Shown here piece after piece: positions 4,839-48,117 of a DNA stretch of 64,000 nt. A model generated the notes under the pieces. That model saw only the letters and a program-made list of their open reading frames with translations. It ran no database searches and had not been told where the DNA came from. The stretch lies in contig MEOQ01000042.1 of the NCBI GenBank assembly GCA_001769275.1, positions 1 to 64,000 of the forward strand. The letters are read 5' to 3'. Each line of letters starts with the position of its first letter. The stretch's first letter is position 1. The translations under genes were made by a program, and so were the position numbers. Origin of the DNA: Bacteroidetes bacterium GWF2_43_63. GTDB lineage: Bacteria; Bacteroidota; Bacteroidia; Bacteroidales; DTU049.

Positions 4839-5113
4839 ACACAAGTTTTTTTGAGGCTTTTACATCTTGCTGGCATTATTGCAATAAAAGGATCAGGTCA
4901 CGCGTCTGGAGACGCGCGCCCAGAGAGGCTGCGAATGTTTTTCAGGAGATCCCGGCTCTCAATGAACATTGAACAGCGAACAATCCGTGCATTCTTACGG
5001 ATCAAGAGGAAGTGAGAATATCGAAGTAAAAATTCTCCTCACTTCATAATTCCTTGTTCCTTGTTCATGATTCGAAAGCTCCGGCCGGGAACTCAGTGGT
5101 GATGATTTATGTG
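4839..5113. repeat. dispersed intergenic repeat, copy A
   Basis: About 275 bp. It is near-identical to 9378-9626 over its whole length, apart from a stretch of about 25 bp (near 4981-5006) that can itself fold (TCCGT...ACGGA) and is absent from copy B. It contains the hairpin CGCGTC-TGGA-GACGCG. Neither copy contains a transposase or a conserved reading frame. Confidence 0.8.
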
Positions 5114-5614
5114 CCTTGGTGTCTTCGTGGCTTAAGCACCTTTGGGCGCGCGTCTCCCGACGCGTGCCCATGAATAATTTATTTGTGCCTTCGTGCCATT
5201 GTGGCAATTCCGATAGCTATCGGAACTCTCTGCGCCTCTGCGAGCTTTGCGCGATGAAACTGAACCAAGATTCATCGCAGATGAAGATTGGTTCGAATTC
5301 GCGTTCATTAGCCCTGCTGAGGGAGGCAAAATCTTTCGCGTGAACCGAAGTGCCTAACAGGCACGAGCTCATGAACACCGATAAATACAAAATAATGAGT
5401 GAATAATACGCGTTAATTCGCGGACAAGCGGAGCGCCGAAGTTGTTGCTTTAATGGTTTTCGCGGAGATCCCGGCACGCATGAACTCTGAATAGCGAACA
5501 AGGAAGTGAGAATGATGAAGGATTATTTACTTCAAACTTACTTCTTACCTCATATTTCCTTGCTCCATGTTCAAGATTCAGTTTTTGTGTCTTGGTGTCT
5601 TCGTGGCAAAACAA

Positions 5615-5640
5615 GAGAGCCAGAATTTCTTCTGGCTCTC
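5615..5640 (-). terminator. terminator of the 932-aa secreted protein gene
   Basis: A perfect inverted repeat, GAGAGCCAGAA / TTCTGGCTCTC with a 4-nt loop. On the minus strand it is followed by a T-rich stretch (TTGTTTTG). It lies about 55 bp past the stop codon at 5697. Confidence 0.8.
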
Positions 5641-5696
5641 ATAAAACCGGGTCAGGGTTTTAGGGTGTTATTTGGGTTGAAATTATTTTTTCTTTT

Positions 5697-9377: not shown

Positions 9378-9626
9378 ACACAAGTTTTTTTATGCTTCTA
9401 CATTTTGCTGGCATTATTGCTATAATAGGATCAGGTCACGCGTCTGGAGACGCGCGCCCAGAGAGGCTGCGAAGGTTTTCGAGGAGATTCCGGCTCGCAT
9501 GAACACTGAACAGCGAACAAGGAAGTGAGAATATCGAAGTAAAATTTCTCCTCACTTCATAATTCCTTGTTCCTTGTTCATGATTCGAAAGCTCCGGTCG
9601 GGAACTCAGTGGTGATGATTTATGTG
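9378..9626. repeat. dispersed intergenic repeat, copy B
   Basis: Second copy of the block at 4839-5113, same orientation, about 4.5 kb away, also downstream of a large T9SS gene on the minus strand. Differences are scattered substitutions and the lack of the 25-bp insert. The end facing the gene carries the tgcg-rich word array. Confidence 0.8.
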
Positions 9627-20156: not shown

Positions 20157-20240
20157 GCCCGAGTGGCGGAATTGGTAGACGCGCTGGTCTCAAAAACCTG
20201 TGAGCGCAAGCTCGTGCCGGTTCGATCCCGGCCTCGGGTA
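20157..20240 (+). tRNA. tRNA-Leu (anticodon CAA)
   Basis: An 84-nt class II tRNA without an encoded CCA. The acceptor arms GCCCGAG and CTCGGGT pair (first pair G-U), the D arm is normal, the T arm is GCCGG-TTCGATC-CCGGC, and the variable arm is GAGC-GCAA-GCTC. The anticodon loop CTCAAAA gives CAA. The anticodon stem CTGGT/ACCTG has one T-T mismatch. The 3' end serves as the attachment site of the integrated element downstream. Confidence 0.93.
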
Positions 20241-40107: not shown

Positions 40108-40158
40108 TAGTAGCCTCCTAATAATTCACGGGCTTCATATTTTTCACTACAAACATTG

Positions 40159-42630
40159 ATGAATAGAATAATAATTTTTACTGTTTCTTTATTTGTTGTA
40201 CGTTTTTTAAATGCTCAACCCTGCGCACTTGAATCTGAAATTGCTGTCCTTAAAATGAATTGCAGCACTCAGAATAGTGCTTCGGATAGTGTTCTGCAAA
40301 ACTTGAACAAACTTAGTTTTTTATATATAAAACATGGAAACATTGACGAAGCAGTATCACTTAATGATTTTGTAATCAAATCACTTTATAAAAATGGAAT
40401 AAAAGTAACCCCTGCATTGACTGGAGCATTGGATGTTAAAGGTCACATTTTATATTCTGTGAATGATATTGAAGAAGCAAAGCGTGTGTGGGAACTTTCC
40501 TTATCAGTTAAGCGCCGTTTTTTTTCAAACAGGAAAGGCCTGCTTGCCGAAAGTTACAGTAATCTGGCGCGGTGTTTTAATTATATGATTGCCATCGACA
40601 GCGCCATGATTTATTCATCAGAGGCAGTTGAGCTAATTAATTCATGCTCCATTGAAGAGCGTAACAAAGTAAATGCTCCGGAGATTTTGCGGACATATGT
40701 TTATGCGTACAAAATTTATTATATGCGCGGTAATGAAAAGAAAACTTGTATTCAGGTAGCAGCAAAACTTGACTCTATCGCCGCAATACCGCACCCATGG
40801 CTGAATTATTACCTGCCTGATTTTATTCATGACAAGGCAAATGCATTTACTGACCTTGCCCTTCATTTTCGTGATGAGCCTTCCAATAAGAATCCCGATC
40901 GTGCATTTTCTGAGTATTGTTATATCAGGGCACAGGAACTTTATGACAGGGAGTTGTATCTTAGAAACAAATTCAATGACAACCCAAATCCGTTATCAAC
41001 ACTGTATTTCACAAAGGCGCTGGTTCAAAAGTATACTTTTGGGAATACGATTGACAATAATTTGAATTGCTTGAGTTATGCGAACCAATCAATTCAGATT
41101 CTTAATGAAAACAATGTGTCAGGGAAGCTTGACCGTATGTTTTTTAAAACAGGCAAATTGAATGTGATGATGTTTAAGAGTGATTTTCTTATCAATTTAT
41201 ATCTTCTTCAAAAAAAGAAAGAACATTTGAACGAGTTGTATGCAAATACTTCAGCTGCATATGAAGTATATATTGACTTAATTAATAATCTGAAAACAGA
41301 CAAACTGGGATCTGTTTTTGAAGTGTATAATTTATTTCAGTTTGATGCTTTGATTTTTGCCGAACTGGAACTGTACAAGTTAACCGGCAATAAAAAATAT
41401 TTAACGGATGCTTTTTGCCACAGTCAGCAATCGAGATACCTTGATTTGCTTGCTTCCCGGAAGGAAAAACAAAACAGTAAATACAACGAACAATATTTTA
41501 TTGATGGGATACAAAAAAATATTTTTTTCACTAAATATACAAGGCATGTTTTTCTTGATTATTATTCATCATATTATAATCCTTTCGTGATATTCATTGT
41601 GTCAAACGGGGAATTGAACTATTATACCGGAACAAAACCCGATTTTTCTGATTTGTCTGTACTTGCCAATCCTGAATTTATAAACGACACACAAGATTCG
41701 GTTTATATTGCTTTGAATTCATTATACAATTCATTTATAAAGCCTGTTTGCGGATATATGATTGGGAAACGATTTGTTCACATCTCCTCTAAGGCTGATT
41801 TTTGCAATGTGCCGTTTGATGCATTACTTCCCGATTTAAAAAATAAAAATCATTTTTTTGGTGATGAATACAACATTCAGAATCGCTTTTCCTTATTGAT
41901 TAATCCACTATTCAGAAAGGACCATTTCGATAGTAATGTAGCGGTTTTTACGGTGAATCCAAGTTATAAGAAGTATCCTGACTTATTGTTCAACCGCAAA
42001 CTGTGCGATGATTTAAAACATCAATACGATGCTGTTTCGGCAAATCATTTAAAGGAAATTGAAAATTCGAATCCCTATATTTTACAGATAAGTGCGCATG
42101 GCTATTTCGATAGCTCGATAATGAAACCAGCATTGCTACTTAATGATTCAGCTGTTGTGACGTATAGTGAAATTGAAAATCTTTTATCAACGCCAATAAT
42201 TGCCTGCTTGATTATGTGCGAAAGTGGGAAAGGCGTTTTAAAAATGTACGAAGGCTCCGATAACCTTGGACGTAGTTTTGCAGTAAACGGCACTCCTGCT
42301 GTTATCACTTCTTTATGGAAAGCTGATGATAAGGCTTCTGCTCTGATAATGTCTTCATTTTACCGCTTTCTGAGCGAGGGATATCCCGTTCACGCAGCTT
42401 TGGTTGAGGCAAAAGCTTTGTTCAGGAAAGAACATCCCGAAATGGCTCATCCGTTTTACTGGGCTTCGATACAATGTACAGGCGATAATCTGACTGTTTC
42501 ATTAAAGAGTACTCAAAGGAAAAATCAGTATTTTGTGTTAGCAGCCGTAGCGGGATCGGCTGTGCTGGCTGGATTGCTGTTGCTGGTGTTTTTACGCCGA
42601 CGGAAAAAGTTGAGTCAGAATAAGAAATAA
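40159..42630 (+). CDS. exported, membrane-tethered CHAT-domain (caspase-like) protein with TPR-like repeats
   Basis: An 823-residue protein from the ATG at 40159. A signal peptide (about 1-20, ending NAQ), a long helical TPR-like region (about 20-450) and a C-terminal CHAT domain (about 550-785) are followed by one transmembrane helix (about 795-815) and an RRRKK tail. The tail charge predicts that the CHAT domain faces the periplasm. The catalytic dyad is visible: H647 (ISAHGYFD) and C687 (MCESGKG), followed by FAVNGTPAVITSLWKADDKAS and HPFYWASIQCTGD. It is therefore likely an active cysteine protease. It faces the anti-sigma and sigma genes, 9 bp away in convergent orientation; this trio recurs in Bacteroidota, from memory. 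Confidence 0.9.
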   Translation: MNRIIIFTVSLFVVRFLNAQPCALESEIAVLKMNCSTQNSASDSVLQNLNKLSFLYIKHGNIDEAVSLNDFVIKSLYKNGIKVTPALTGALDVKGHILYSVNDIEEAKRVWELSLSVKRRFFSNRKGLLAESYSNLARCFNYMIAIDSAMIYSSEAVELINSCSIEERNKVNAPEILRTYVYAYKIYYMRGNEKKTCIQVAAKLDSIAAIPHPWLNYYLPDFIHDKANAFTDLALHFRDEPSNKNPDRAFSEYCYIRAQELYDRELYLRNKFNDNPNPLSTLYFTKALVQKYTFGNTIDNNLNCLSYANQSIQILNENNVSGKLDRMFFKTGKLNVMMFKSDFLINLYLLQKKKEHLNELYANTSAAYEVYIDLINNLKTDKLGSVFEVYNLFQFDALIFAELELYKLTGNKKYLTDAFCHSQQSRYLDLLASRKEKQNSKYNEQYFIDGIQKNIFFTKYTRHVFLDYYSSYYNPFVIFIVSNGELNYYTGTKPDFSDLSVLANPEFINDTQDSVYIALNSLYNSFIKPVCGYMIGKRFVHISSKADFCNVPFDALLPDLKNKNHFFGDEYNIQNRFSLLINPLFRKDHFDSNVAVFTVNPSYKKYPDLLFNRKLCDDLKHQYDAVSANHLKEIENSNPYILQISAHGYFDSSIMKPALLLNDSAVVTYSEIENLLSTPIIACLIMCESGKGVLKMYEGSDNLGRSFAVNGTPAVITSLWKADDKASALIMSSFYRFLSEGYPVHAALVEAKALFRKEHPEMAHPFYWASIQCTGDNLTVSLKSTQRKNQYFVLAAVAGSAVLAGLLLLVFLRRRKKLSQNKK

Positions 42631-42639
42631 AAATCCGTT

Positions 42640-43401
42640 TTATTTGTTGAAATACTCTTCACACAGCAATGCTGATGCACTTTTACTGAATGAGTGATGC
42701 GGATTGTTTTGAATTTTTTCAAGACTTATTGCCGCTTCTGCTTTTTTATCTTCAGCTACCAGCGTTAAAGCCAGCCACCATTCCGCTTTTTGATTCCAAA
42801 CAGATTCCTTTTCCAAAAGAAGTTTTTTGAGATTCTTTTCGGCCATTGAATAATTGTTTGTTTCAAAATGACAGAGGGCGGAAAAGTATAACAAGGTGTC
42901 ATTGACGGGTTTTTTGCTTAGCATTTCGTTGAAATTGCGCCCTGCGGCGGAAAAGTCTCCCGACCGGAAAAGATTCATCGCCTCGTTGAAATTAATATTT
43001 GTAGTATGATCCATCAATACCGGCAAACCTGGCTCGGAGGGTTTGTATTTCGTGGCCAGTTCTATGGTATTTGATTGATTACTGCGCAATGATGGATACA
43101 GGATGGCAAACAAAGCGAGCATAAGTATCAGAATGGCAGCTGCACGAAATACGATACGCCGTATAGGCTTTCTGTTGCCGCGCTTGTCGCTGAATCCGGC
43201 TTCTTTGTTTTTTAATACCGACCTCAGATTTTTCTCGTCTTCTTCTTTAATCTTGTCAATTAATGTGCGCAATATTTCAACATTGGTTACCAACTCTTCG
43301 TCAGCAATCATGCGTTTTTCAAATGCCGCTGCTTCCTGCTCCGTCATCCGGTGCAACAGGTATGATTCTGCCAGTTCTATGTCTTTTTCTTCATCCATCA
43401 T
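42640..43401 (-). CDS. membrane anti-sigma-like protein with periplasmic TPR domain
   Basis: A 253-residue protein from the ATG at 43401; the one at 43398 is equally possible. The cytosolic N-terminus has the anti-sigma-like pattern LAESYLLHRMTEQEAAAFEKRMIADEELV. One transmembrane helix lies at about 81-100 (IVFRAAAILILMLALFAILY). The periplasmic part is TPR-like (INFNEAMNLFRSGDFSAAGRNFNEML, YFSALCHFETNNYSMAEKNLKKLL). It overlaps the sigma gene stop (ATGA), so both are made together. The inferred role is to hold the sigma factor at the membrane until a periplasmic signal arrives; the TPR part might bind the CHAT protein. Confidence 0.8.
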   Translation of the reverse strand: MMDEEKDIELAESYLLHRMTEQEAAAFEKRMIADEELVTNVEILRTLIDKIKEEDEKNLRSVLKNKEAGFSDKRGNRKPIRRIVFRAAAILILMLALFAILYPSLRSNQSNTIELATKYKPSEPGLPVLMDHTTNINFNEAMNLFRSGDFSAAGRNFNEMLSKKPVNDTLLYFSALCHFETNNYSMAEKNLKKLLLEKESVWNQKAEWWLALTLVAEDKKAEAAISLEKIQNNPHHSFSKSASALLCEEYFNK

Positions 43402-43982
43402 AATACACTCAAACAAACCAACAGAATTTTTTTTGCTTTTAATGACAAGCGTTTCAGTATATCAAACTTTCGCTTGCGAAGGGCTCCTTCGCTAATGCCC
43501 AGATCAGCAGCAATTTCTTTCAGAGGTTGCTCCTGTATATAATATTGATCCAGAATCACCCTTTCCTCTTCGGAGAGTTCGGTCAGAAACGCTCCCACCT
43601 GTTTTTTTATATGCTCCGAATTGCTTTTTGTTTCCATCAGATTCACATCGCATGTGTTCCCATTAATCAATTCGTGCGAACAAAAGTTACCATGCAGGAG
43701 CTTTCTTTTCTGCAGGTTGATTAGTTTGAATTTGCCAATCGAAAACAAATAAGTTTTAACCGAAGAATTCATCTCCGTCAAACGTTTGTCTCTGATATTT
43801 TCATACAATGCAATCACGGCTTCCTGAAAAGCATCGGCGCATTCTTCTTCTGTGCAGCCCGATTTTTTGCAGCCAAAGCGTATGAAATCGTTTCGGTATA
43901 CGGCATACAAATCGCCGAAAACAACATGGTTTCCTGCTGTAATAGCTTGCTGCAATATGTGAAACGACACCTCCGGATTCAT
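43398..43982 (-). CDS. ECF-type RNA polymerase sigma factor
   Basis: A 194-residue protein from the ATG at 43982. Region 2 (about 25-90, FGDLYAVYRNDFIRFGCKKSGCTEEECADAFQEAVIALYENI) and region 4 with its HTH (about 140-190, LSEEERVILDQYYIQEQPLKEIAADLGISEGALRKRKFDILKRL) are clear. A Cys-rich patch (GCKKSGCTEEEC) is unusual but not otherwise explained. A TAAGTTTG box lies on the minus strand only about 5 nt before the ATG (43988-43995), suggesting a very short leader. It probably drives its own operon and unknown targets. Confidence 0.9.
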   Translation of the reverse strand: MNPEVSFHILQQAITAGNHVVFGDLYAVYRNDFIRFGCKKSGCTEEECADAFQEAVIALYENIRDKRLTEMNSSVKTYLFSIGKFKLINLQKRKLLHGNFCSHELINGNTCDVNLMETKSNSEHIKKQVGAFLTELSEEERVILDQYYIQEQPLKEIAADLGISEGALRKRKFDILKRLSLKAKKILLVCLSVL

Positions 43983-44166
43983 TGTCGCAAACTTACGTAA
44001 AAATGTGATATACATAGGTTGCATTTTCGATTATTAATAATCTTTATTCTTTTGTATCGCGAAAAAGTTCAAAACGTCTATTAAATCAATCATAATCAGA
44101 AATATACAATATTTATTACGCATTGTAACATTTACATTTTTCGATTGATTAATACGGTATAAAACC

Positions 44167-44203
44167 AAAAAACGCGGAAGCCGAAAAGCGGGAAGAGAGT
44201 AGG
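44167..44203 (+). repeat. 37-bp repeat, copy 1
   Basis: Begins aaaaaacgcggaagccgaaa and ends gagagtagg. Three copies are perfect over 37 bp (44167, 45396, 46882), all in the direction of the genes. The ATG of the first gene lies 22 bp after this copy. The flanking sequence differs between copies. Confidence 0.92.
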
Positions 44204-44225
44204 CATGGATTAAAATAAGAGAAAA

Positions 44226-44495
44226 ATGAAAAAGAAAATTTTGTTTGGATTTGCTATTCTAATCATTTCAAGTTTGTTAGTTTTTCAAGTTGGCTGCTCT
44301 GGAAAAAAATCAAACAACAAAAGTTCTTCAGATTCTAAAGTCACTACAGAATCTAGCCAATCTTCTTATGATTGTCCTCATTGTAATGGGTCGGGTGAAA
44401 GAATAAACAATGTAACAGGAGAATATACAACTTGCTCATCTTGCGGTGGAGATGGAAAAGTTACTAAGGAACAATATGACCATTTAAGTAAATAG
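44226..44495 (+). CDS. small lipoprotein with DnaJ-type zinc-finger module
   Basis: An 89-residue protein. The signal peptide ends in a lipobox (VFQVGC, Cys24). After a Ser/Lys-rich linker the protein has CPHCNGSGE and CSSCGGDGK: two CxxCxGxG repeats, one half of the DnaJ zinc-binding module. The exported, lipidated context is unusual for this motif. Zinc or thiol binding outside the cytosol is inferred. First gene of the first repeat-headed unit. Confidence 0.8.
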   Translation: MKKKILFGFAILIISSLLVFQVGCSGKKSNNKSSSDSKVTTESSQSSYDCPHCNGSGERINNVTGEYTTCSSCGGDGKVTKEQYDHLSK

Positions 44496-44524
44496 TAGTG
44501 AATCAAAATTTTAATAATAACAAA

Positions 44525-44908
44525 ATGAATATGAGAAATAGGTTGGCGTTTGTTTATGTATCCATTGTTATAATTGGCCTTTCTGCATGCGGGCCAAAGG
44601 AAGTAAGGAAGGCGTATGACTGCGAATGTGGCCAGGATGCGTGGAAATATATTAAAGGTCACGAATATGGGGATTTTTATAGAGCATGGGGATATCCGTC
44701 AGGGAAAAGGGAAACTCACAATGCTGATGGCGACAGACAAGTATTGTATACGTGGAAAATTCCTGGTTTATTCCAAAGTGGAAAATATGAATCTGACGAA
44801 ATTAGTATTGCGTTTGATGCATACACATCCACAGCACATGAAGACCCGCTGCAGGATTTCGGAACTGCATTATATTTTTACTGCGGTAATTCTGGACCAT
44901 TTAATTAA
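44525..44908 (+). CDS. small lipoprotein of unknown function
   Basis: About 127 residues from the ATG at 44525; an ATG two codons later is possible and a GTG at 44498 is less likely. A lipoprotein signal ends at GLSAC. The mature part contains CECGQDAWKYIKGHEYGDFYRAWGYPSGKRETHNADGDRQVLYTWKIPGLF, a compact beta-rich sequence without a recognised family. It follows the zinc-finger lipoprotein by 29 bp and is probably co-transcribed. Confidence 0.65.
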   Translation: MNMRNRLAFVYVSIVIIGLSACGPKEVRKAYDCECGQDAWKYIKGHEYGDFYRAWGYPSGKRETHNADGDRQVLYTWKIPGLFQSGKYESDEISIAFDAYTSTAHEDPLQDFGTALYFYCGNSGPFN

Positions 44909-44914
44909 CATAAG

Positions 44915-45136
44915 ATGAAAAAAGTTGAAATAACTATTCACTATGCGAACAATAGCAAAAGTACTTCTGCGATTTTCTATACTGAAAATGTAGAAAAATT
45001 GAAAGAATTCTTTGAGATTTTATCTGATGAAAATATTTTTGATAGGACTTTCTCTACATTCGAAAATATATCTTCTACAGAAGAAGTTGAAGACATGAAA
45101 CAACTAGCAGGTATTAAAAAACAGACAGAGCTATGA
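44915..45136 (+). CDS. small protein of unknown function
   Basis: A 73-residue soluble protein (MKKVEITIHYANNSKSTSAIF...), starting 6 bp after the previous gene. It begins with a beta strand and continues as acidic helices. Its stop overlaps the next start (ATGA). No family was recognised. It differs from its neighbours in lacking a signal peptide. Confidence 0.6.
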   Translation: MKKVEITIHYANNSKSTSAIFYTENVEKLKEFFEILSDENIFDRTFSTFENISSTEEVEDMKQLAGIKKQTEL

Positions 45137-45378
45137 ATGCAGAATTAAAAGAATTCAGAGACCAAAATGGTCGTGTTTTTATTGCAGTATTTTGGGTGAT
45201 CATACCACCATTTGATATCCTGATGATGAATGATGCAAGAATACGCCTCAATAACTATATTAGTTCATATGTAGGTAATCGTGGGCACAACATCTATTTG
45301 CATAAAGAGAAGGACACTGTATCTGCAATCATTACATTTGATTTAAACAATTATCCTGGACAGACAATTGAAATTTAA
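45133..45378 (+). CDS. small protein of unknown function
   Basis: An 81-residue protein without a clear signal peptide (MNAELKEFRDQNGRVFIAVFW). It contains short beta strands (IYLHKEKDTVSAIITFDLNN). The start overlaps the stop of the previous gene. Last gene of the first repeat-headed unit. No family was recognised. Confidence 0.6.
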   Translation: MNAELKEFRDQNGRVFIAVFWVIIPPFDILMMNDARIRLNNYISSYVGNRGHNIYLHKEKDTVSAIITFDLNNYPGQTIEI

Positions 45379-45395
45379 AACAGTAAAACTAATTC

Positions 45396-45432
45396 AAAAA
45401 ACGCGGAAGCCGAAAAGCGGGAAGAGAGTAGG
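45396..45432 (+). repeat. 37-bp repeat, copy 2
   Basis: Identical to copies 1 and 3 over 37 bp. The ATG of the 471-aa gene lies 20 bp after it. Confidence 0.92.
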
Positions 45433-45452
45433 CGTTGAAATAAATATTTTTT

Positions 45453-46868
45453 ATGCGACTGTTTATTTTTGGTGCTTTAGTGTTTTTGTCGTTTTGTCTT
45501 TCAGCTCAGAAAGCAACAAATTACAAAAAGGATATTGAGCCTTTATTGAAGGAACAAAAGTTTGATGAGGCATTGCCTTTACTTAAAAAGTTTTATAATG
45601 AACGACTTGATAAGTATGGGGTTTGGACAAATAAGGCTATTCTACAAATGGATTTTATGTATTTAGCTAGTGAAAATATAGCTGTGATTTATTTCAATAA
45701 AGCTACGTCAATGATTTCAGTTGAATATGCTGATTCGGCGGATGTATGGTTTGAAATAATGAAGCACGATGATCACCCTAAAAAAGGCAACATAGATACA
45801 TATATTGAAAAATTAAATGATGTTAAAATTAAAGCTGCGGAAATACAACAAAAAAAGCAGGAAGAAGAGAGAAAAGTAAAGGAAAGGCTCGCAATGGCTG
45901 AAATCATTGATGAAATTGTGCATTATAAATTTGTTGCAGAGTGTGTTGAATTTGAACATGTTTATTATGAAACAAAAATATATGATTATAAAAAAGCAAA
46001 TGAAATGTATATTGTTGCTAAAGAACAAATGGCCGCACTTGGATTACTGAAGTTGCCCATTGATATTGTTTTGTCAGATGTTCCTGATGAGGTTGAGCAC
46101 CCTGGTACAATGAGTTCAAATCTTTATAGTTATTTTGATAATAGAAAAAAATCTTTAAAGTATAACAGCGTTAGTTATCAAATGGATGGTAATAATTTAT
46201 CTGAAGTGAGTTATTATTCACAAGTGGATAATCAATCACATTATTATTCATTAGAACCAGTGCAAATTGCGGACTCATCTTTAATAAATGATTTGTGCAC
46301 TGAAAAATTAAAAGAACTCAATAATGTCAATAAAAATATACTTTATTCTTTATTAGAAACTGCCCGACACGAACAGTATGCCGTTGAAGCAAAAAAAGCA
46401 AGGGAAGAACTATTGGCAGCAAATTCGCCAAATGAAAAGATAATGCTCGAAGACAAAACGTTACCATATGCATCAACAAAACTGTGTGATTATCGAGATG
46501 GCAGATTTGTAGCTTACTATCAAAATAACACAGTATATAGACGTCATTATAGTAGGTTGGAAAATTCATTTGGAGAATGGAAAGCGACTGGATCAAAAAT
46601 TTTGATTAGAAATGGAAAGAAAATATTTTATCGGCAAAAACACTATAATGAAGCTGTAATTGAGGCGGATGGTTCTGTTAAGATTTATACTGTGTCAGAA
46701 TCAACGGGAGAGAGACTTTCTGATCATTATTATAATTATGGATATGTGAATGGGAATAGATTTGATTCAGAAGCTGACAGCAAAGAAAAAGCTGAAGATG
46801 GGTTTTTATTTAAAGGTAGTGCAATAGAGGCGATCATTATCGTTAGCCTTTGCAACAGTTTTAAATAA
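45453..46868 (+). CDS. secreted protein of unknown function
   Basis: A 471-residue protein with a signal peptide (MRLFIFGALVFLSFCLSAQ). The N-terminal half is helical, TPR-like in style (EPLLKEQKFDEALPLLKKFYNERL) and continues into a coiled coil (KIKAAEIQQKKQEEERKVKERL). The C-terminal half is beta-rich with Tyr-rich strands (YHYYSLEPVQI..., RFVAYYQNNTVYRRHYSRLENSFGEWKATG). No known catalytic motif. It forms the whole second repeat-headed unit. Confidence 0.7.
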   Translation: MRLFIFGALVFLSFCLSAQKATNYKKDIEPLLKEQKFDEALPLLKKFYNERLDKYGVWTNKAILQMDFMYLASENIAVIYFNKATSMISVEYADSADVWFEIMKHDDHPKKGNIDTYIEKLNDVKIKAAEIQQKKQEEERKVKERLAMAEIIDEIVHYKFVAECVEFEHVYYETKIYDYKKANEMYIVAKEQMAALGLLKLPIDIVLSDVPDEVEHPGTMSSNLYSYFDNRKKSLKYNSVSYQMDGNNLSEVSYYSQVDNQSHYYSLEPVQIADSSLINDLCTEKLKELNNVNKNILYSLLETARHEQYAVEAKKAREELLAANSPNEKIMLEDKTLPYASTKLCDYRDGRFVAYYQNNTVYRRHYSRLENSFGEWKATGSKILIRNGKKIFYRQKHYNEAVIEADGSVKIYTVSESTGERLSDHYYNYGYVNGNRFDSEADSKEKAEDGFLFKGSAIEAIIIVSLCNSFK

Positions 46869-46881
46869 CAATAGAGCGATT

Positions 46882-46918
46882 AAAAAACGCGGAAGCCGAA
46901 AAGCGGGAAGAGAGTAGG
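46882..46918 (+). repeat. 37-bp repeat, copy 3
   Basis: Third perfect copy, 20 bp before the ATG of the 325-aa gene. All three copies keep the same distance and orientation to a gene with an export signal. Confidence 0.92.
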
Positions 46919-46938
46919 TGCTTTTGAAAAAGGATAAA

Positions 46939-47916
46939 ATGAAGAAAATATCATTTGCAGGCATGGCCTTTTGCATGTTAATTAATTTAAGCCTGTTTTG
47001 CCATGCACAAACAAATACCACCGAAGCAGTTTTTGACACAGCCTATTATTACGATATTATGGATGTAACTCATTATTTCTATGAGTTCCATGATTCAAAA
47101 AACAACAAGATTGAATTTGTAGAAATTTCGAATGTGCCATTTGATTTCGTACCAATACAATTTGGTTTACTTAGCAACACCACGACATCTGCATTTGGTG
47201 ATGGGTTCGGTGAAATAAATGCTTCTTTAAAAAATAAATTGTTTCGGGTTTCTTATGAGAATGGGCAATATATGAATGGTGATTTTGAGAAAACCGAATG
47301 CAGGTTTATTAAAGATGCAAAGGAAATTATGATGGGAAATTCTGTCGTTTACGAAGATAAGTACATTGTAGTCAGAAGTATAAATCAGGCTGATTACATT
47401 GCATCTAAAGCATTTGTGAGCAATATGTATGACACCAGTCGCCTTATAAAAACTATAAATCATGTTTTAGTCTTGCCACTTGCGACGGGCAAAAATGTGG
47501 TTTATAAAGAAACACCATGCGAGGCAGTCGGTCCAGAATATTTTACTGTATATGAACACATTGGTGATTTTAAAGATTTTTTTGTTGTTCAAACTGGTTG
47601 TTATGAAAGTTCATCTTTCATATTCGTCAGCAAAGCTACCGGAGCTGAATTTACGTTTAATGAACTGCCTGTTTTATCACCGGATGGGTCAGTTCTTTTC
47701 ACATTTGTCAACAGTCTTTTTGGGTTATCCTGGAGTGACCCCAATTATAAAATATATTCGGCCATAGGCGCAAATATTGTTATGCTCTGTGAAAAAGATC
47801 TTTCATCGGGTTCGTTTCAGATTTCTGAGGTTGGCGAGTGGAAATCGACAAATGAATTGTATGCAGTGTTGTATATGGACAGTGCAGAAAAGTATTGTGT
47901 TATCACGTTTAAATAG
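46939..47916 (+). CDS. secreted protein of unknown function
   Basis: A 325-residue protein from the ATG at 46939 (MKKISFAGMAFCMLINLSLFCHAQ signal peptide); a GTG at 46918 would start in the repeat. The mature part is beta-rich with no recognised domain (VEISNVPFDFVPIQFGLLS, YFTVYEHIGDFKDFFVVQTGCYESSSFIFVSK, VLFTFVNSLFGLSWSDP). Those sequence features (short strands with conserved Gly/Tyr) hint at a propeller-like protein. Third repeat-headed unit. Confidence 0.65.
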   Translation: MKKISFAGMAFCMLINLSLFCHAQTNTTEAVFDTAYYYDIMDVTHYFYEFHDSKNNKIEFVEISNVPFDFVPIQFGLLSNTTTSAFGDGFGEINASLKNKLFRVSYENGQYMNGDFEKTECRFIKDAKEIMMGNSVVYEDKYIVVRSINQADYIASKAFVSNMYDTSRLIKTINHVLVLPLATGKNVVYKETPCEAVGPEYFTVYEHIGDFKDFFVVQTGCYESSSFIFVSKATGAEFTFNELPVLSPDGSVLFTFVNSLFGLSWSDPNYKIYSAIGANIVMLCEKDLSSGSFQISEVGEWKSTNELYAVLYMDSAEKYCVITFK

Positions 47917-48117
47917 CTTCTTTTACATTGTTGTTTTCTTGTTTGCGAAAACGTCAGCAAACTCCTAAAATAACTGTAGCATCTTGTGTTTAAATTGTTT
48001 ATACAAATCACACTAATTCAACAATGTAGACATTCCTTATCTTTATGTAATTTTCAAATTCTTTCATCCGGCATTGTAGCAATTCAGTGCCGGATGTTTT
48101 TTGTGTGGTGCTGATAC

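Follow-up and report, generated by a model that had tools for sequence, protein, structure and literature searches.

The window analysed here is a stretch of 64,000 nucleotides (nt) of Bacteroidetes bacterium GWF2_43_63 (assembly GCA_001769275.1, contig MEOQ01000042.1, positions 1 to 64,000), and the element in question is a 37-nt block, AAAAAACGCGGAAGCCGAAAAGCGGGAAGAGAGTAGG, which stands there in three identical copies at 44167–44203, 45396–45432 and 46882–46918, all on the forward strand. The identity cannot be extended jointly on either side across all three copies, and the block is the sole 37-mer present three times on the forward strand of the window. The ungapped identity among the flanks of the copies is low (6–11 of 30 nt upstream, 6–9 of 20 nt downstream), which confirms the original prediction of three exact copies in one direction with unrelated sequence around them. 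From the end of the repeat to the ATG there are 22, 20 and 20 nt for copies 1, 2 and 3, respectively; the stop codon of the open reading frame (ORF) ahead lies 17 nt before the start of copy 2 and 13 nt before that of copy 3, so that the block resembles one operon with leaders between its genes. The 33-nt core of the repeat, at up to three mismatches, was found in none of 100 dinucleotide-preserving shuffles, and at the same tolerance the whole genome (3.98 Mb, 51 contigs) holds only these three matches, the reversed control pattern giving no match in the whole-genome scan.

Copy 1 is followed by a lipoprotein-type ORF of 89 amino acids (aa) at 44226–44495 (+), copy 2 by a 471-aa ORF with a signal-peptide-type start at 45453–46868 (+), and copy 3 by a 325-aa ORF, also with a signal-peptide-type start, at 46939–47916 (+), the lipoprotein- or signal-peptide-type N-termini being judged by eye. 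As had been stated earlier, the three genes belong to no known family: none has a match above the Pfam cut-off, the first showing a sub-threshold DnaJ CXXCXGXG match. The 471-aa gene, with one weak match among 98 other genomes of the order, is close to an orphan. Three more ORFs, on the same strand, complete the cassette of copy 1. The first of them has a lipoprotein-type N-terminus and no Pfam match above cut-off; it was listed from GTG 44498 (136 aa), and its start is likely the ATG at 44525, which gives 44525–44908. It is followed by a 73-aa ORF at 44915–45136, again without a Pfam match above cut-off, and by an 81-aa ORF at 45133–45378 with no Pfam family.

All three copies were recognised by cmscan as Rfam family RF02914, 'DUF805b RNA', over the full model (positions 1–35) and above its gathering threshold of 35.6 bits: copy 1 at 44171–44205 with 45.2 bits, copy 2 at 45400–45434 with 42.8 and copy 3 at 46886–46920 with 41.4. 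The window repeat belongs to an RNA family already known and is not a new element. Like the window copies, the family has the same sequence, a helix S1, unpaired GAAAA and GAGUA blocks and a position 5′ of a protein gene; Rfam types it as cis-regulatory, places it in clan CL00115 and lists it without function. The Rfam model holds S1 only; what the present analysis adds to it are the second helix, the fixed 20-nt distance to the start codon, the occurrence in viruses and the exact array of three copies. The motif was reportedly first described by Weinberg et al. in 2017. Searches of the open literature found no mention of DUF805b or 'DUF805 RNA', and the accession RF02914 in one machine-learning paper (PMC7682815); we make no claim of priority for the pseudoknot or for its occurrence in phages.

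The original prediction had called for a search of the whole genome and of relatives for the repeat and its next gene. Other, more diverged RF02914 matches of the same genome lie on contigs C39 (36.9 bits, above the cut-off) and C40 and C18 (about 31 bits, below it). With the own genome included, the family was found at E ≤ 0.001 in 47 of the 59 genomes that make up the set of relatives (above the cut-off in 28 of the 59) and in 36 of 118 genomes of a phylum-wide set at E ≤ 1e-4. None of 14 named control genomes had a match at E ≤ 0.001 or the other stricter limits; at E ≤ 0.01, sub-cut-off matches appeared in two archaeal controls. Pattern scans were also made of named genomes and viral contigs, in which the loci listed, 80 of 115 and 80 of 120, respectively, were read; the counts given below for these two sources refer to them. 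By title and genus, 79 of the 80 named records listed are Bacteroidota, and the remaining one is titled a Proteobacteria metagenome-assembled genome. Eighteen chosen named genomes (Pedobacter, Chitinophaga, Chryseobacterium, Flavobacterium, Kordia and others) carry 1–29 matches each. Exact scans of the genome and viral contig collections for 27 nt of the window repeat (own genome possibly excluded) gave no match, suggesting that the exact window sequence is local, while the RNA family is wide. Several elements stand within about 100 nt of draft contig ends (G002:C140, G002:C538, G050:C215, G006:C101 and G027:C182), as if leaders were breaking assemblies, and arrays may be undercounted.

Pseudoknot structure of DUF805b

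The comparative analysis was based on 126 elements, that is 80 read of the 149 matches in the 59 genomes and 46 of the 75 matches of the phylum-wide set (own genome excluded), a non-random set in which the own family, arrays and higher scores were favoured. In the Rfam model there is a single stem, S1, and S2 is absent. By reading the 126 elements side by side we observed that the triplet ahead of GAAAA pairs with the triplet behind GAGUA, forming S2, and it is near certain that DUF805b is an H-type pseudoknot of about 33 nt, with an S1 of 3–5 base pairs (bp) and an S2 of 3 bp. The GAAAA block, between the 5′ strand of S2 and the 3′ strand of S1, is present in 124 of the 126 elements, and GAGUA, before the 3′ strand of S2, in 125. 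In copy 1 of the window the helix analysis places S1 at 44173–44175 with 44188–44190 and S2 at 44180–44182 with 44202–44204, GAAAA at 44183–44187 and GAGTA at 44197–44201, all on the forward strand. The S1 core pairs of the window copies are C-G, G-C and C-G, with the outermost pair of the Rfam model being non-standard, and in copy 3 the outer S2 pair is G-U.

The check for covariation in RNA alignments, suggested earlier, was run on the 94 distinct elements with a 4-nt first loop, of 120 distinct ones (the other 26 were handled separately), and revealed strong pair covariation. Standard pairs of S1 and S2 were formed in 92.4% of the cells, compared with 65.4% in shuffles, double-change cells were 178 versus 55, and the covariation score was 0.697 versus 0.176 (slid controls at most 0.10); for each of these three measures none of 500 shuffles was as high. 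Moreover, the outer S2 pair is formed in 89 of the 94 elements, where the shuffle maximum was 58. A double change could be followed directly in one orthologous pair of elements standing before homologous lipoproteins (44% identical, E 1e-32), in which the inner S1 pair is U-A in genome G000 and C-G in genome G005. Although S1 pairing was not part of the pattern used for the viral scan (S2 and a single S1 base were), an S1 of at least 3 bp was found in 80 of the 81 viral elements.

Among the closest known families is DUF805 RNA (RF03081), of the same clan, whose 3′ end spans the same pseudoknot; it differs in its length of 68 nt and in an extra upstream hairpin (GTGGAG..CCAC type, by eye). RF03081 gave 18 matches in 11 stretches of relatives and no match in the window at gathering, where its clan-mate RF02914 is reported instead.

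Start-codon distance, promoters and downstream genes

An ATG ORF begins within 60 nt downstream of 114 of the 126 elements, compared with 562 of 2520 random same-strand positions, at a median distance of 20 nt (10–90% range 17–25 nt). The fixed distance before an ATG noted for the three window copies holds family-wide, and the contrary case, a repeat scattered at random with no link to start codons, does not agree with these counts. Such an ORF follows 77 of the 81 viral elements, in 71 cases at 15–25 nt, and 76 of the 83 elements in named genomes, in 52 cases at that distance; the spacer between element and AUG is A/U-rich and G-poor. On the other side, the element starts within 40 nt of a same-strand upstream stop codon in 46 of 80 viral cases and in 19 of 126 and 12 of 77 host cases, with a median viral gap of 8 nt over the 75 elements having such an upstream ORF.

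The original prediction had left the choice between a shared promoter and a 5′ leader element, and the evidence favours the latter: the repeat belongs to a cis-regulatory family of Rfam, the pairs of that family covary strongly and its distance to the ATG is fixed. The exact Bacteroidetes −7 box, TAnnTTTG, occurs inside none of the 126 elements and is enriched upstream of them, 25 of 125 having one within the preceding 60 nt (4.2 on average and at most 10 in 200 shuffles). Since the conservation tracks base pairing, −7 boxes are absent inside the elements and many copies lie near upstream stop codons, with little room for a promoter, the shared feature is the distance to the start codon rather than a promoter. 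A DNA promoter or sigma-factor site could still be imagined at copy 1, because the gene of a sigma-70 family sigma factor, of extracytoplasmic function (ECF)-like type, adjoins it divergently (43398–44024, −) and both the gene and the leader are kept in a same-genus genome, G002. A sigma factor 61% identical to it was found in one of the 19 relatives searched, the remaining matches being weak, to be compared with RF02914 in 47 of 59 genomes, and neither base-pair covariation nor the many copies directly behind a stop codon would be expected of such a site, which we regard as very improbable. The sigma gene closes a module at 40156–44024 that also encodes a TPR-CHAT protein and a TPR protein (anti-sigma-like by position). 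The same TPR-CHAT/TPR/ECF-like sigma module is found in G002:C140, where a gene for an AAA_14/DUF4143 ATPase lies between the sigma gene and the leader.

Twelve of the exact −7 boxes end 6–15 nt before an element, which would place it at or near the 5′ end of the mRNA, as would suit a role in mRNA stabilisation or RNA processing instead of translation. Stability, however, needs no fixed spacing to an ATG, and many copies stand tight behind an upstream gene, though processing could make 5′ ends there; on balance, we find a stabilising or processing role improbable.

The genes behind the element were described in the original prediction as encoding exported proteins, and this holds as a tendency in hosts but not as a rule. 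By a simple heuristic, a hydrophobic or lipoprotein N-terminus was found in 71 of 110 host genes, compared with 345 of 929 other ORFs of the same stretches, and in 51 of 76 genes of the named genomes, whereas in the viral contigs only 5 of 65 are N-hydrophobic. A Pfam scan of 105 of the 111 downstream host proteins (five repeats or near repeats and one with X residues were omitted) gave scattered families: Por_Secre_tail in 9, OMP_b-brl in 6, DUF805, TRL and TM2 in 3 each, DUF2589 in 2, one bacteriorhodopsin and one ThsB-like TIR. The bacteriorhodopsin-like gene (L188 1178–1924, +; PF01036, 154 bits) starts 19 nt behind its DUF805b element, and the ThsB-like TIR gene (L073 216–710, +; PF08937, Thoeris type, 101 bits) 21 nt behind its own. 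In viral contigs the commonest assignable families are ParB-like partition or nuclease proteins, with phrog_12305 in 18 of 63, and DNA-metabolism families; one viral protein, L307, has no relatives among named phages. Another viral contig with a DUF805b leader, L319, carries a permuted tmRNA match (5512–5670, +; RF04321, 72.9 bits) and a tRNA. Whole-record searches of 20 viral records gave 1–3 matches each at E ≤ 0.01, of which the weakest scored far under the cut-off. In a blast of 35 nt against phages, ten Flavobacterium phage records matched; the many brief partial hits to further phages, with E values of about 1 or higher, were taken as chance. In Flavobacterium phage vB_FspS_lillamy9-1 (NC_048835.1), gp40 and the ParB-like gp41 are separated by 59 nt, and this gap contains the element, 20 nt before the ATG of gp41 and ahead of a gene for a single-strand binding protein. 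For F. psychrophilum, a transcriptome study describes structured 5′ regions and Flavo-1 hits (PMC9723704).

A compact pseudoknot with two nearly invariant unpaired blocks beside a start codon, 1–29 matches per genome where the family is present and host genes biased to exported proteins and lipoproteins are the features one would also expect of a small H-type pseudoknot riboswitch, or of a site for an RNA-binding protein, reporting one signal to a surface or accessory regulon. The preQ1-I riboswitch is a very small H-type pseudoknot upstream of a start codon; DUF805b differs from it in having no preQ1-I match in Rfam and genes of mixed function behind. No known riboswitch family was found in the window at gathering, a sub-threshold SAM-II match lying on the opposite strand and away from the repeats. 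The absence of a match to any known riboswitch family, the mixture of host genes (type IX secretion tails, OMP barrels, DUF805, TM2, rhodopsin, ThsB-like TIR) and the ParB-like and DNA-metabolism families that are commonest among the assignable viral genes argue against a single signal of this kind, though they may leave room for a global one. We consider a leader gated by a ligand or a protein the main rival to the reading developed below, and unlikely rather than remote.

Arrays and gene exchange

Between neighbouring copies of the element (less than 4 kb apart and on the same strand, 29 pairs) the mean identity is 86%; it falls to 73% for the 258 distant pairs within one genome and to 71% for pairs from different genomes, the near-pair counts depending on the choice of elements read. 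Eight of the 29 pairs were excluded from the homology test since an ORF was missing or cut (one of them, G011:C35:91 and 1473, looks homologous by eye). Only 3 of the 21 testable near pairs precede homologous genes, and in the 18 non-homologous ones the leaders are 88% identical, significantly above the distant pairs (88% versus 73%, p=9e-9). In genome G253, for instance, two leaders with 97% identical elements and 93% identical upstream 40 nt precede a 399-aa ORF and a differently starting short ORF (less than 50 aa), respectively. Genomes G011 and G007 share the upstream flank and the leader (93%) but have different genes behind it; beyond the replaced gene the identity is back at 99.7% in the next segment, and there is no N run in the stretch concerned. 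In G002, the leader beside the sigma gene shares its upstream flank with window copy 1, but about 16 nt downstream of it match window copy 2. The G002 and G011 patterns fit a loss or exchange of cassettes between leaders, which would have occurred by homologous recombination.

An assembly duplication is unlikely to be the source of the three window copies, as the flanks and the genes differ, the window has no N run and an orthologous copy 1, with one mismatch in a 30-nt pattern, is present in the same-genus genome G002. The exact identity of the copies had been attributed to recent copying or strong selection. As the G002 element differs at one of 30 bases while the neighbouring sigma factor is 61% identical, exact identity need not mean very recent copying; constraint, the other half of the suggestion, is retained, and the reading we prefer is conversion acting together with it.

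That the repeat might be the head of a cassette was borne out in part: copies close to each other are similar although their genes are mostly unrelated, and behind one kept leader the gene has changed, but neither a hairpin-type recombination site nor an adjacent integrase was found. In integrons, gene-cassette arrays likewise place repeats between unrelated accessory genes in one direction. In the window array, by contrast, there is no hairpin-type repeat or nearby integrase, and the position of the repeat is tied to the ATG. No inverted repeat of at least 20 nt was found at the window copies and their hairpin stability is not unusual, no attC model having been run, and a simple hairpin or attC reading was rejected on the folding result. 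No integrase lies beside the array; the nearest PF00589 match of the genome is at C42:23951–24487, 20 kb away. A DNA recombination site heading mobile cassettes in the integron manner, its RNA-like conservation being incidental, would account for arrays with unrelated genes, for copies alike within an array and for the gene exchanged behind a leader. It is nonetheless quite improbable, less so only than a promoter, because the covariation describes a pseudoknot and not one long hairpin, the spacing is fixed to the ATG, the copies fold no better than shuffles, the nearest tyrosine recombinase is 20 kb away, the 20 viral records hold 1–3 matches each and many viral copies lie tight behind the upstream gene.

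A proposed leader acting at translation initiation

Taken jointly, the family identity of the repeat, its pseudoknot and an action of DUF805b as an RNA leader at translation initiation have, in our estimate, a probability of about 60%. The translation step is suggested, from sequence comparison, by the fixed spacing, by the copies tight behind upstream genes and by the functional breadth of the genes served. In the mechanism we propose, the knot in the mRNA, which ends about 20 nt ahead of the AUG, would occupy the upstream edge of the 30S subunit during initiation, possibly on its platform side, and over the A/U-rich, G-poor spacer would set how frequently ribosomes start at that AUG, either as a constitutive docking or enhancer element or gated by a bound protein or ligand. 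The leader being a short portable module, the three-copy array would have arisen through recombination or conversion, which keeps neighbouring copies alike while accessory genes swap behind them. A classical off-switch in which the element sequesters the start site was rejected: pairing between element and downstream region, by folding that ignores the pseudoknot, was 8.9 versus 9.9 for shuffled elements in hosts and 5.4 versus 6.9 in viruses, and sequestration is unsupported since the pairing is not above that of shuffled elements.

Bacteroidia ribosomes are described as lacking Shine-Dalgarno recognition owing to sequestration of the 16S tail on the 30S platform (PMC9976891), and initiation in F. 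johnsoniae as tuned by upstream bases and structure (PMC6847099), both papers agreeing that Shine-Dalgarno pairing is not used in the phylum. More specifically, DUF805b could be a structural initiation element that recruits or positions 30S subunits whose anti-Shine-Dalgarno is sequestered, a module which phages would use in their gene clusters and which, being short and portable, would spread by recombination and gain new, often orphan, accessory genes. We put this forward tentatively, as a possibility less likely than not.

Several observations weigh against the leader at translation initiation and the pseudoknot on which it is built. Two of the five covariation measures, the pairs with both sides changed and the further pair types, were not above shuffles. 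The 26 of 120 distinct elements whose first loop differs from 4 nt form the outer S2 pair in only 7 cases, mostly two S2 pairs being left. Pseudoknot-free folding of the window copies, with and without flanks, gave no unusual stability (z 0.00 to 0.76). An ATG ORF of at least 50 aa within 60 nt is missing behind 12 of the 126 elements, some of which stand before a short ORF or a contig end. The start region is only slightly more open than the background (unpaired 0.59 in hosts and 0.65 in viruses, 0.55 in the background), and no exact −7 box precedes any of the window copies within 60 nt. Finally, one leader chimera, G011:C35:91–123, was set aside as a possible assembly artefact, since it lies on the far side of a nearby N gap.

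A family labelled only as cis-regulatory RNA gains a testable pseudoknot structure and a geometric rule, an AUG at a distance of about 20 nt. That rule, the family's use by viruses and the exact array of three copies before unrelated genes give it more interest than its present label suggests. As to how Bacteroidota choose start sites without Shine-Dalgarno pairing, a conserved structured element ahead of the start site that hosts and phages share makes one possible answer directly testable; Flavobacterium phage lillamy and its host Flavobacterium sp. LMO9 offer a tractable pair.

Other features of the window were noted. A plasmid origin of the array was considered and rejected, positions 44100–48000 having no match in the plasmid collection. 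About 20 kb from the repeat array, a tRNA gene (20157–20240, +; 52 bits) has the tyrosine recombinase gene (PF00589, 23951–24487, −) within 4 kb, and the two may mark a tRNA-anchored island. Among the repeats listed, 20-mers recur in register between about 4889–5060 and 9427–9570, a diverged direct duplication.

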